A DNA stretch of 64,000 nt from Azospira oryzae (GTDB lineage Bacteria; Pseudomonadota; Gammaproteobacteria; Burkholderiales; Rhodocyclaceae), in assembly GCF_004217225.1 (NCBI RefSeq), contig NZ_SHKM01000002.1, positions 1-64,000 of the forward strand, given 5' to 3'. Below the pieces are notes generated by a model. It had not been told where the DNA came from and searched no databases. It was given only the letters and a program-made list of their open reading frames with translations. Made by a program: the position numbers and the translations under genes. Below are positions 4,111 to 26,577 of the stretch, piece after piece (position 1 is the stretch's first letter; every line of letters begins with the position of its first letter).

Positions 4111-4539
4111 TTAGATATCCAGGGTTTTGGGCTGCTGAGCGCTATGGGGGTGTTCAGCACCAGCGTAGCACTTCATCTTCTTCAGCATGGCGTAGCCGAG
4201 CGGGCCCTTGGGCAGCATGCCCTTAACAGCCTTTTCCAGCACACGAGCGGGGAAACGCTGCTGCAGCTTGGTGAAGTTAGTTTCATAGATACCACCGGGG
4301 TAACCGCTATGCCGGTAATACTTCTTGTCCTCGGCCTTGTTACCGGTGACACGAAGCTTCTCAACATTGGTCACGACGATGAAGTCGCCGGTATCAACGT
4401 GAGGGGTGTAAATTGCCTTGTGCTTACCACGCAGCCGGCGAGCGATTTCAGTGGCGAGGCGGCCGAGCACCTTGTCTGTGGCGTCCACCACATACCACTC
4501 GCGCTTCACCTCATGGGGTTTAGCGGAAAAAGTTTTCAT
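4111..4539 (-). CDS. rplM: 50S ribosomal protein uL13
   Basis: 142 aa from the ATG at 4539, which is preceded by AAGGAC and begins [20 protein letters not shown]. An open frame continues 40 codons upstream, but it crosses the promoter at 4576-4605 and lacks homology to the family, so it is not used. Conserved uL13 motifs include [19 protein letters not shown] and YRHSGYPGG. Confidence 0.97.
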
Positions 4540-4575: not shown

Positions 4576-4605
4576 ATTATATGGGGGCAGAACACCCCGT
4601 GTCAA
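4576..4605 (-). promoter_or_regulatory. Promoter of rplM-rpsI
   Basis: The minus strand reads TTGACA (4600-4605), an 18-base spacer and TATAAT (4576-4581), followed by the GC-rich CCGCGGC discriminator. It sits 37 bases before the rplM start and downstream of the hairpin at 4647-4670, so that hairpin is not part of the ribosomal mRNA. Confidence 0.85.
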
Positions 4606-4640
4606 TGCCTTCTTGGCAGACAACACAATCCAGCGCCAAC

Positions 4641-4755
4641 AAAAAAAGCGCGACTCCAAGGAGTCGCGCTAAATCCACACCAAAGGAGGAGGGTGGAGGA
4701 GACAAACTGCAAGCATGAGCCGCACCAAAACCTACGTACAACTCACACTCAAGTT
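4641..4755 (-). ncRNA. Candidate small RNA with tandem anti-Shine-Dalgarno motif
   Basis: On the minus strand a promoter TTGATT (4785-4790), 17-base spacer, GATAAT (4762-4767) predicts a start near 4755. The RNA ends at an 11-bp stem with a 2-base loop (4647-4657 paired with 4660-4670) followed by seven T. Between them, 4685-4701 reads CTCCTCCACCCTCCTCC on the RNA strand: two CUCCUCC blocks complementary to ribosome binding sites. No protein-coding gene lies on this strand here. The design resembles the Rfam family called Betaproteobacteria toxic small RNA, but I cannot run the covariance model. Confidence 0.7.
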
Positions 4756-4821
4756 GAGTTAATTATCACTAAAGGCAAGGTCGAAATCAAGTAATTTTTT
4801 GTGCGATGCACCAGTATTTTT

Positions 4822-4850: not shown

Positions 4851-5039
4851 ACACAACCCAATGTTTTGAATGATCAAATTCAATTTATCAGAAATTGATT
4901 TACCAATTCGTAATTTCACAACCACCTCAGAAGCAAGCCAACACCCCTTGCATTTGTGCGGCGCAACAATACGCACCACTCCCGGCCATCTGATAGAGCC
5001 CTTAGAATGCGCCCTTCCAATAAATGGAGAGGTCTCATC

Positions 5040-5456
5040 GTGGAATGCAAAGTTAAATGGGTTGATGGAATGGCTTTTCTGGCGGAAACAGGCAGCAACC
5101 ATACTGTGATGATGGACGGCGCCCCGGAAGCTGGAGGTCGCAACCTGGCTCCCCGCCCGATGGAGCTATTGCTGGCAGGCACAGGAGGATGTACTGCCTT
5201 TGATGTTGTCCTGATCCTGAAAAAAGGACGTCATGAAGTTAGTGACTGCGAAGTAACGCTCCATGCCGAGCGCGCCGCCACAGACCCCAAAGTCTTCACG
5301 AAAATTCATTTCGCCTTCAAGGTCACCGGGAAAAATCTCAAGCAAGCCGCAGTGGAACGGGCTATCGAACTATCCAAGGAGAAGTACTGCTCCGCCTCAA
5401 TCATGCTGGGCAAAACAGCCACCATCACGCACGAACTTGAAGTGGTCGAAGCATAG
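5040..5456 (+). CDS. OsmC family protein (YhfA-like)
   Basis: 138 aa from a GTG at 5040 preceded by GGAGAGG. The longer open frame from 4956 adds 28 residues without family similarity. The fold markers are two conserved cysteines, in AGTGGCTAFDVVLILKK and in KEKYCSASIMLGK, the thiol pair used by OsmC/Ohr proteins to reduce hydroperoxides. The YhfA subgroup has no firmly established substrate, so organic peroxide detoxification is inference from the family. Monocistronic and convergent with coq7. Confidence 0.85.
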   Translation: MECKVKWVDGMAFLAETGSNHTVMMDGAPEAGGRNLAPRPMELLLAGTGGCTAFDVVLILKKGRHEVSDCEVTLHAERAATDPKVFTKIHFAFKVTGKNLKQAAVERAIELSKEKYCSASIMLGKTATITHELEVVEA

Positions 5457-5493: not shown

Positions 5494-6117
5494 TCATAGA
5501 TAGTAGGCAACCCCCGTCATCACTTTTGACGACAACTTCATCGCAAGCCTGACCGGACCGGGCAAGTCCACTCCTCCGAGACTAACAGCCGTCTGCGCAT
5601 GGCTCATCTCATCAAATTTCATCTGGCTCACAATGCTTCTTGAACGCTGATCAGCCAGGGGCAAGCGCCGTAAATGGCTATCAAGATGGCGTTCGACCTG
5701 GCGTTCTGTCTCAGCCAGAAATCCAAGATTCCACGAATCACCAGCCTTTCCCGCCACGCCCCCCAGCGCCAGCGACCCCGCATACCACAGCGGATTCAAA
5801 AAGCTTTTACGTCCGCCCAACTCCTGAATTCGCCTTTCGGTCCACGCAAGGTGCTCCGTTTCTTCCCAGGCCGCATGCTCCAGCGCCTGCTTGATCACCA
5901 CATTCTTCGACGTCAGTGCCTGCCCCTGATACAAGGCCTGGGCGCATATCTCACCACAGTGATTGACCCGCATCAGCGCCGCGGCGTGACGCTTCTCCTC
6001 CGGAGACAATTCAGGCATCGGCACATCAGATCCTGGAACAGAGCGGCGAGTCGGCGCAGGGGCGAATACGGCTCGAAGCGCTTTATCAAACTCGACAATC
6101 AGGCGATCAATGCTCAT
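5494..6117 (-). CDS. coq7: Demethoxyubiquinone hydroxylase Coq7
   Basis: 207 aa di-iron monooxygenase of ubiquinone synthesis that hydroxylates 2-polyprenyl-3-methyl-6-methoxy-1,4-benzoquinone. The carboxylate/histidine ligand set of the four-helix bundle is present: E56 in [12 protein letters not shown]86 and H89 in EETEH, E138 in AETERQ, and E170 and H173 in DEMSH. Length matches proteobacterial Coq7. It is the last gene of a leftward group with the CNP1-like, CBS and rppH genes. Confidence 0.95.
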
Positions 6118-25716: not shown

Positions 25717-25820
25717 AGATGGCTCACACCGTCTCCCGCTTTACCTCCCTGAGCGGGTGCCTTAATCAAGTTAATTAAGGCATTTCGGCCCCCGGTTACC
25801 CCTTTACCGGGGGCTTTTTT
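25717..25820 (+). ncRNA. Candidate small RNA convergent with engB
   Basis: Three consecutive hairpins on the plus strand: CCCGCT/AGCGGG (25735-25757) with an 11-base loop containing ACCTCCCT; GCCTTAAT/ATTAAGGC (25759-25781); and GCCCCCGGT/ACCGGGGGC (25788-25814) followed by TTTTTTA, a Rho-independent terminator. No gene on this strand precedes it to need a terminator, since hemB runs away to the left. The exposed ACCUCCC loop could pair with ribosome binding sites. Location and direction match Spot 42 in enterobacteria, convergent with the 3' end of engB. The 5' end is a guess from the promoter. Confidence 0.5.
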
Positions 25821-26577
25821 ATTTCTGTGCCGGAGCCTTGGCCGGCTTCGGTTTGGCCGGCTTGCCCCCCGCCAGCACGGCTTTCTTGTTGCCCGGGGCG
25901 TGGGTCCGGTTCTGCTTGGCGCCGGCGGCGCTCTTGGCCGAACGGATCGGCCGGGGCGGCGGCGCCGGGCGCGGCGGCGGCACTTCCATGCCCATCCAGC
26001 CGGCGATCACCTTCTCCGCTTCCTCGACGCCGGTCTTCTTCAGGCTGGAGAACAGCTGGACGGTGCAACGTTCCCCCAGATCGGCCATGGCGGCCTTGAC
26101 CTGACGCAAAACCAGGGACTGTTCCTGCCGCGTCAGCTTGTCCGCCTTGGACAGCATGATGTGCAGGGGCTTGCCCGTGGCGGCAAACCAGTCGATCAGG
26201 TTCTGGTCCAGCTCCGTCAGGGGATGGCGGCTGTCCATGATCAGCACCAGGCCGGACAACGGCCCGCGATGCTGCAGGTAGGGGCCGAGCAGGCCCTCCC
26301 ACTGGGAACGGATTTCCTCCGGCGCCTTGGCATAGCCGTAGCCGGGCAGGTCCACCAGGAACTTGCCCTCTTCCAGCTTGAAGAAGTTCAGGTGCTGGGT
26401 ACGGCCGGGGGTTTTGGAAACGAAAGCCAGCCGGGTGTGGTTGGCCAGGGTATTGATGGCGGACGACTTGCCGGCGTTGGAACGACCGGCAAAAGCCACC
26501 TCCGCCAGGGCGTCCTCGGGCAGATCCCGCAAATGGGCGACGGTGGTTAAAAAAACCGCCTTTTGAAACAGGGCCAT
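25819..26577 (-). CDS. engB: Ribosome biogenesis GTPase EngB/YsxC
   Basis: 252 aa TRAFAC GTPase needed for 50S assembly. G1 [13 protein letters not shown]3 [12 protein letters not shown]4 SKADKL. The GTPase domain ends at about 200. The remaining 50 residues are a proline/alanine/lysine tail ([14 protein letters not shown] then lysine-rich), well beyond the usual length near 200. The tail is probably disordered and basic, perhaps binding rRNA (inference). The stop codon overlaps the T tract of the convergent small RNA terminator. Confidence 0.93.

Follow-up and report, generated by a model that had tools for sequence, protein, structure and literature searches.

On the minus strand of the Azospira oryzae window (the whole 64,000-nt stretch of contig NZ_SHKM01000002.1 that was analysed) lies, upstream of rplM, a small RNA of the RF02278 family, and 7 bp upstream of the −35 box of its promoter, TTGATT, is a perfect match to a published operator motif of PhaR, the repressor that senses the stored bioplastic PHB and moves from DNA to its granules. 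This operator, which was absent from the first-pass annotation of the locus, points to carbon storage: the sRNA is, we believe, most likely repressed by PhaR and released upon PHB formation. The RNA family is already known; the PhaR/PHB switch at its promoter is a new proposal, for which we found no earlier report.

The sRNA and its structure

A minus-strand transcription unit without a protein had been described here, and both of its ends were located by scan: a TTGATT-N17-GATAAT promoter (hexamers at 4790–4785 and 4767–4762, 17-nt spacer, 9/12 consensus letters) and an intrinsic terminator (Table 1). The start is predicted near 4754, giving an sRNA of about 114 nt where about 115 bases had been estimated, and CTCCTCC does occur twice within 17 bases. 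The terminator needs one correction: the run of seven T is as described (4647–4641, with the first T inside the stem), but scan and fold both give 10 pairs and not the 11 of the first-pass annotation. Promoter and terminator matches alone are weak evidence (2 promoter matches by scan vs. 0.6 expected, and 1 terminator vs. 0.7 expected). As a prediction from sequence, the transcription unit first described in 4641–4790(−) is confirmed as real. A 15-codon open reading frame, seen by eye to run through the core, was considered as a conserved peptide and set aside: it ends in TAG, where many relatives have CAG or other letters.

Table 1. Features of the sRNA locus and its surroundings (window coordinates), with the phasin-linked RNAs found in other genomes.
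Feature	Position	Strand	Basis
RF02278 double-hairpin sRNA core	4640..4704	−	cmscan, fold, alignment
Predicted primary transcript, about 114 nt	4641..4754	−	promoter and terminator scan, fold; inferred start
Two CTCCTCC anti-Shine-Dalgarno blocks (4701–4695 and 4691–4685)	4685..4701	−	sequence; nearly invariant alignment columns
Intrinsic terminator with a 10-bp stem and a T run ending at 4641	4647..4670	−	scan; both-side changes in stem pairs
sRNA promoter, TTGATT-N17-GATAAT	4762..4790	−	promoter scan
Proximal PhaR-type operator, 17/17 match to YTKNTGCRNYGCANMAR	4798..4814	.	motif scan, motif from PMC12849132
Distal PhaR-type operator, 17/17 match, osmC side	4953..4969	.	motif scan
rplM (ribosomal protein L13)	4111..4539	−	PF00572
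Separate rplM promoter, 12/12 consensus, TTGACA-N18-TATAAT	4576..4605	−	promoter scan
osmC, divergent neighbour	5040..5456	+	PF02566, ORF list; start by reading, mechanical ORF from 4956
coq7	5494..6117	−	PF03232
Phasin-linked CU-rich RNAs with terminator: L123, L129, L130, L132, L133, L346, L353, L355, L359			

By cmscan, RF02278 (“Betaproteobacteria toxic small RNA”) matches 4640–4704(−) with 66.2 bits against a cut-off of 50, at an E value of 3.9e-11 over the whole window, which bears out the suggested membership in the betaproteobacterial toxic sRNA family and supports the assignment to a known kind of RNA. The fold of 4641–4704(−) has z = −6.9, with 0/200 shuffles equally stable; taken together, this z and the RF02278 E value place the structure beyond chance. 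Fold and pair counts give the layout of the family: two hairpins, of which the second is the intrinsic terminator, and CU-rich unpaired blocks; the 5′ leader contributes a third hairpin in the fold of the predicted transcript 4641..4754. Across 34 aligned loci, 33 of them distinct, both partners have changed in 9 of the 10 terminator pairs, and the two helices together hold 80 cells with such two-sided changes vs. a shuffled mean of 28.8 (0/500 shuffles as high). The CU-rich 5′ part of the core is nearly invariant, and both CTCCTCC blocks and the terminator are kept in most of the aligned relatives, so that the poor conservation which would have spoken against the first-pass reading is not seen.

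The genome itself has one RF02278 copy over the cut-off; no further copy was found there, the next-best match scoring 22.2 bits against the cut-off of 50. Four other families were tried at the locus and rejected: MmgR (RF00519; 19.4 bits, cut-off 41, E 0.16) and NmsRb/RcoF1 of Neisseria (RF02877; 35 bits, cut-off 52), the latter also a CU-rich sRNA, as well as ncS54 and anti-hemB, both scoring under their cut-offs. Elsewhere in the window, at 25732–25822(+), there is a match to RF02837 (anti-hemB, Burkholderia RNA 7) with 76.2 bits (cut-off 49.5); even with one mismatch allowed, no PhaR-type site lies near it.

PhaR-type operators at the sRNA promoter

A recurring TGC-N3-GCA palindrome was noticed in the upstream sequences of the sRNA relatives. 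The published PhaR motif of R. eutropha is YTKNTGCRNYGCANMAR (PMC12849132), and that of PhbF in H. seropedicae TG[N]TGC[N]3GCAA (PMC3206438). The window holds two perfect sites of the PhaR motif vs. 0.03 expected, and the same two when one mismatch is allowed (0.66 expected); the distal one lies outside osmC if osmC starts, as we read it, at 5040. Six perfect sites occur in the whole 3.45-Mb genome: the two at the sRNA, one upstream of a phasin gene, and three inside coding-looking open reading frames. Relaxing the search to one mismatch raises this count to 67, compared with 2 when the pattern is reversed.

The genome encodes one PhaR (PF07879, 108 bits) and four phasin-family genes. At the phasin promoter the palindrome stands 6 bp before TTGACA, vs. 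7 bp before TTGATT at the sRNA; that one operator motif stands at both the sRNA promoter and a phasin promoter in this genome would place the sRNA in the PhaR regulon. Two one-mismatch PhaR-type sites on contig C1 of this genome (L093 1501–1517 and L092 1501–1517) lie between open reading frames, one of them upstream of an acyl-CoA-synthetase-like frame (named by reading), and may mark further PhaR targets.

Operator and PhaR across genomes

RF02278 matches at E 1e-4 or better were obtained for 56/61 genomes in the host's family, 44 of them exceeding the cut-off, and for 109/200 in its order, 74 of them exceeding it; at least 120 stretches in the species collection contain the exact core 27-mer. 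The set of fetched loci numbers 140, from 123 genomes: within the host's family, one second copy over the cut-off (G049:C22:199531) is uncounted and some sub-cut-off matches are included; from the order scan, loci of 70 of the 74 genomes over the cut-off were used (not G079, G154, G200, and G231); and outside the host's family, second copies and nearly all sub-cut-off matches were left out. For each locus we scored the strict site, TGCRNYGCA, within 200 nt upstream of the sRNA, and for each genome of a fetched locus the presence of PhaR by a search for a single Pfam domain, PF07879; draft genomes may miss PhaR.

The strict site is present in 89/119 loci from genomes with PhaR vs. 0/21 loci from genomes without a PhaR match, where shuffles give means of 4.8 and 0.4, respectively. 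Counted by genome, the figures are 77/102 vs. 0/21, and for the rplM-linked loci alone 53/68 vs. 0/7. Besides shuffles, other blocks of the same loci served as controls: the strict site occurs in 53 of 1416 other 200-nt blocks of the PhaR-bearing loci and in 4 of 68 first-100-nt stretches after the core. The 200 nt downstream of the core were rejected as a motif control, because they cover rplM coding sequence; several loci have one- or two-mismatch matches there.

Relatedness of the genomes inflates this association. An rplM tree of 75 loci shows about four changes of PhaR, too few independent ones for a paired test to reach significance, and the Fisher value (2.4e-11) is therefore unfit as a probability. 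Three families contain both kinds of genome, and in these the sites number 40/55 vs. 0/2, 3/4 vs. 0/1, and 1/1 vs. 0/3 (with vs. without PhaR). Two genomes in which PhaR was not matched still have an imperfect site, with one mismatch in G012 and two in G101; of the 102 genomes with PhaR, 25 show no strict site at the copies fetched. Among the matches listed for the exact 27-mer (80 loci), 76 have 200 nt or more of upstream sequence, and 62 of these carry the strict site within 200 nt; PhaR is present in all 50 genomes checked out of the 80. In 17 named loci inspected closely, six showed no TGC-N3-GCA within the 450-nt upstream region looked at; these include three of Cupriavidus and one of Ralstonia, even though the motif was defined in R. 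eutropha.

The upstream sites gather around three places, −90 to −80, −30, and −260 to −230. In the host's family, 28 of 39 rplM-linked loci have the proximal site, 21 a distal one (−300..−200), and 16 both, while among copies without these neighbours a site lies at −45 to −20 in 14/32.

Three side observations belong to this survey. The RNA is also present in genomes without a PhaR match, at 21 loci (L064, L072, L138, and L142 among them), and TCCATCC stands at the core in 17 of these 21 vs. 13 of the 119 loci with PhaR. Genome G044 has five RF02278 copies within about 3.5 kb (L099 1501–1771, L102 1501–2064), and a palindrome stands about 38 nt ahead of four of these copies. Finally, in G126 (C1:2180464–2181647), a sub-cut-off RF02278 match and the phaR gene are about 1 kb apart, on opposite strands.

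Phasin promoters and phasin-linked RNAs

The same strict site is found in 17 of 28 phasin upstream sequences (13 genomes; 24 of 33 phasin matches plus the four of the host genome), and 12 of these 17 have two sites 55–60 bp apart. The RNA itself also turns up at phasin genes: five weak RF02278 matches start 12–42 nt past a phasin stop codon, the phasins being confirmed by Pfam. A search with TGTCTCCTCCTCC in 62 genomes of the family gave 17 matches in 13 genomes, of which eight, in seven genomes, lie 9–42 nt after a phasin-like open reading frame and are followed, by eye, by hairpin-like repeats and then a T run; the other nine have no phasin preceding them. G056 adds a ninth phasin-linked RNA, in which the first letter of TGTCTCCTCCTCC is changed, so that 8/62 genomes of the family carry the phasin-linked double-hairpin RNA in total. 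All nine cases have a strict site ahead of the phasin open reading frame. These RNAs, possibly sRNAs derived from the mRNA 3′ end, link RNA of this kind to PHB granules by a second arrangement. The six genomes G008, G017, G022, G032, G045, and G056, which are among the 25 PhaR genomes without a strict site at a fetched copy, all carry the phasin-linked form. In G014 (L124, L352), two RF02278-like RNAs stand about 100 nt after a LysR-type regulator-like open reading frame (named by reading), and no PhaR-type site was found upstream of them.

These sites bear on a reading in which PhaR is not the controller: the sRNA would be an ordinary RF02278 member that is under growth-phase control, or is bound at its palindrome by some other regulator of similar site preference. 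A motif match differs from binding, a quarter of the PhaR genomes lack the strict site at their fetched copies, and shared descent could explain why genomes without PhaR lack it; on the other hand, the palindrome is the same at the phasin promoters, the strict site is missing in every fetched locus without PhaR, and perfect sites are rare, with 3–10 per genome in 12 genomes (9 of them picked for a perfect sRNA site) where the reversed pattern gives 0 or 1. We regard this reading as unlikely, if by no means negligible, and retain PhaR as the probable controller.

Comparison with known relatives

Burkholderia cenocepacia has four RF02278 “double-hairpin” RNAs, ncS03, ncS05, ncS27, and ncS62; the three that were measured are up in biofilm, starvation, and glucose medium (PMC5688073). 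The sRNA of the window is like them in passing the covariance cut-off and in its two hairpins and CU-rich blocks, and differs in being the sole copy over the cut-off in its genome. S17 of Bordetella pertussis is a closely similar Hfq-bound RNA that has coq7 nearby, as has the sRNA of the window; it is made as a long form from a promoter of its own, and a short form processed by RNase E, which starts at a C/U-rich stretch, is abundant (PMC11722255). Its candidate targets include many transporter genes, and one regulator gene is directly repressed (PMC11722255). S17 is reported to depend on BvgA~P and to be enhanced by it, not by PHB, which counts against the PHB link that we propose for the sRNA of the window; its authors speculate that a repressor of the S17 promoter must exist (PMC11722255). 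The exact 27-mer of the window occurs in two Bordetella loci by osmC and coq7, and may correspond to the conserved 27-nt element with which the short form of S17 begins at its 5′ end; rplM was not found within the stretches examined. By eye, the palindrome in each of these loci, which belong to Bordetella genomosp. 2 and 12, overlaps a −35-like hexamer that is followed after 17 nt by a −10-like one (TTGCAT-N17-TATGAT and TTGCAA-N17-TACTAT), and the published S17 promoter hexamer pair has no exact match in either.

The CTCCTCC blocks presumably resemble the tail of 16S rRNA, and the sRNA might then act mainly as a mimic of that anti-Shine-Dalgarno tail, a general sink or block of ribosome binding, which would account for its toxicity and for its place by ribosomal protein genes. 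The family was indeed named for toxicity in E. coli (PMC5688073), but its relatives repress defined gene sets, and S17 overexpressed in E. coli leaves exponential growth unimpaired (PMC11722255): “toxic” is an overexpression label from the literature that is not valid for every relative. Many copies, moreover, are away from rplM, 65 of the 140 fetched loci having no same-strand rplM in the fetched stretch, and we judge a general mimic improbable.

The nearest working analogue of the switch that we propose is MmgR of Sinorhizobium meliloti (RF00519, suhB/mmgR, alpha-r8), which by covariance model belongs to another family (see above): a CU-rich, Hfq-dependent sRNA tied to PHB, whose promoter is a target of binding and repression by PhaR (AniA) (PMC12542648) and which lowers phasin levels (PMC8401924).

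Genomic context

The sRNA lies between coq7/osmC and rplM-rpsI (rpsI named by reading). In the fetched stretches osmC is present in 84/140 RF02278 loci and coq7 in 60/140, and rplM follows downstream on the same strand in 75/140; the position adjoining rplM is conserved, and nothing found links the function of the sRNA to ribosomal protein genes. That it is a leader or attenuator of the rplM-rpsI operon, as its place upstream on the same strand might suggest, we dismiss as very improbable, because a separate 12/12 promoter for rplM follows the terminator (so the first-pass annotation was right that the hairpin is no attenuator) and RF02278 copies occur away from rplM, and relatives are free sRNAs on Northern blots (PMC11722255, PMC5688073).

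A proposed PhaR-gated brake on carbon intake

We consider it probable that PHB-stored carbon frees the sRNA from PhaR, with the phasin co-derepressed and the translation of uptake and catabolic genes lowered. PhaR would sit at the operators of the sRNA promoter and repress the sRNA; when PHB is formed, PhaR would be titrated to the granules and leave the DNA, and phasin and sRNA would be derepressed together. The CTCCTCC blocks of the sRNA may then pair with the Shine-Dalgarno sites of uptake and catabolic mRNAs, which would be translated less, a brake on carbon intake and growth during storage. Shine-Dalgarno pairing is proposed because of the CTCCTCC blocks and the published work on relatives. 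Duplex energies against 66 open reading frame starts of the window (mechanical frames, not all genes) ranked osmC 4th and rplM 21st; phasin mRNAs were not singled out, with ranks 21 and 11 of 66.

Our literature search, which was incomplete and covered mostly open-access papers, found no report joining PhaR with RF02278, ncS27, or S17. PhaR goes unmentioned in the text, as far as available, of PMC5688073, PMC10987360, PMC11722255, PMC4603805, and PMC7011215; in the first of these, a common upstream motif of the double-hairpin RNAs is in the supplement, outside the text searched. Conversely, the searched text of PMC12542648 does not mention RF02278, ncS27, or Bordetella, and a 2021 review describes the riboregulation of PHB in Cupriavidus necator as undeciphered (PMC8401924).

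Overproduced members of RF02278 slow growth, as ncS27 does in B. cenocepacia (PMC5688073), yet no repressor is named in the text of the papers searched. A PhaR operator offers a testable answer and links the RNA to PHB production: control by PhaR would fit the rise of RF02278 members in glucose medium and starvation (PMC5688073), and makes PhaR a candidate for the repressor that the authors of S17 speculated on (PMC11722255). More broadly, and with a confidence that only leans towards it, the anti-Shine-Dalgarno RNAs of RF02278 across the Betaproteobacteria may be the RNA arm of the PHB-storage response, with PhaR coming off their promoters upon granule formation and being the unnamed repressor of S17; several genera of the host's family would carry the RNA in the 3′ end of a phasin mRNA, obtaining the coat protein and the uptake brake from one transcript, and the RNA would be the counterpart of MmgR, of separate origin or diverged beyond recognition. 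If the proposed switch is true, carbon storage could itself switch on a brake on feeding and growth.
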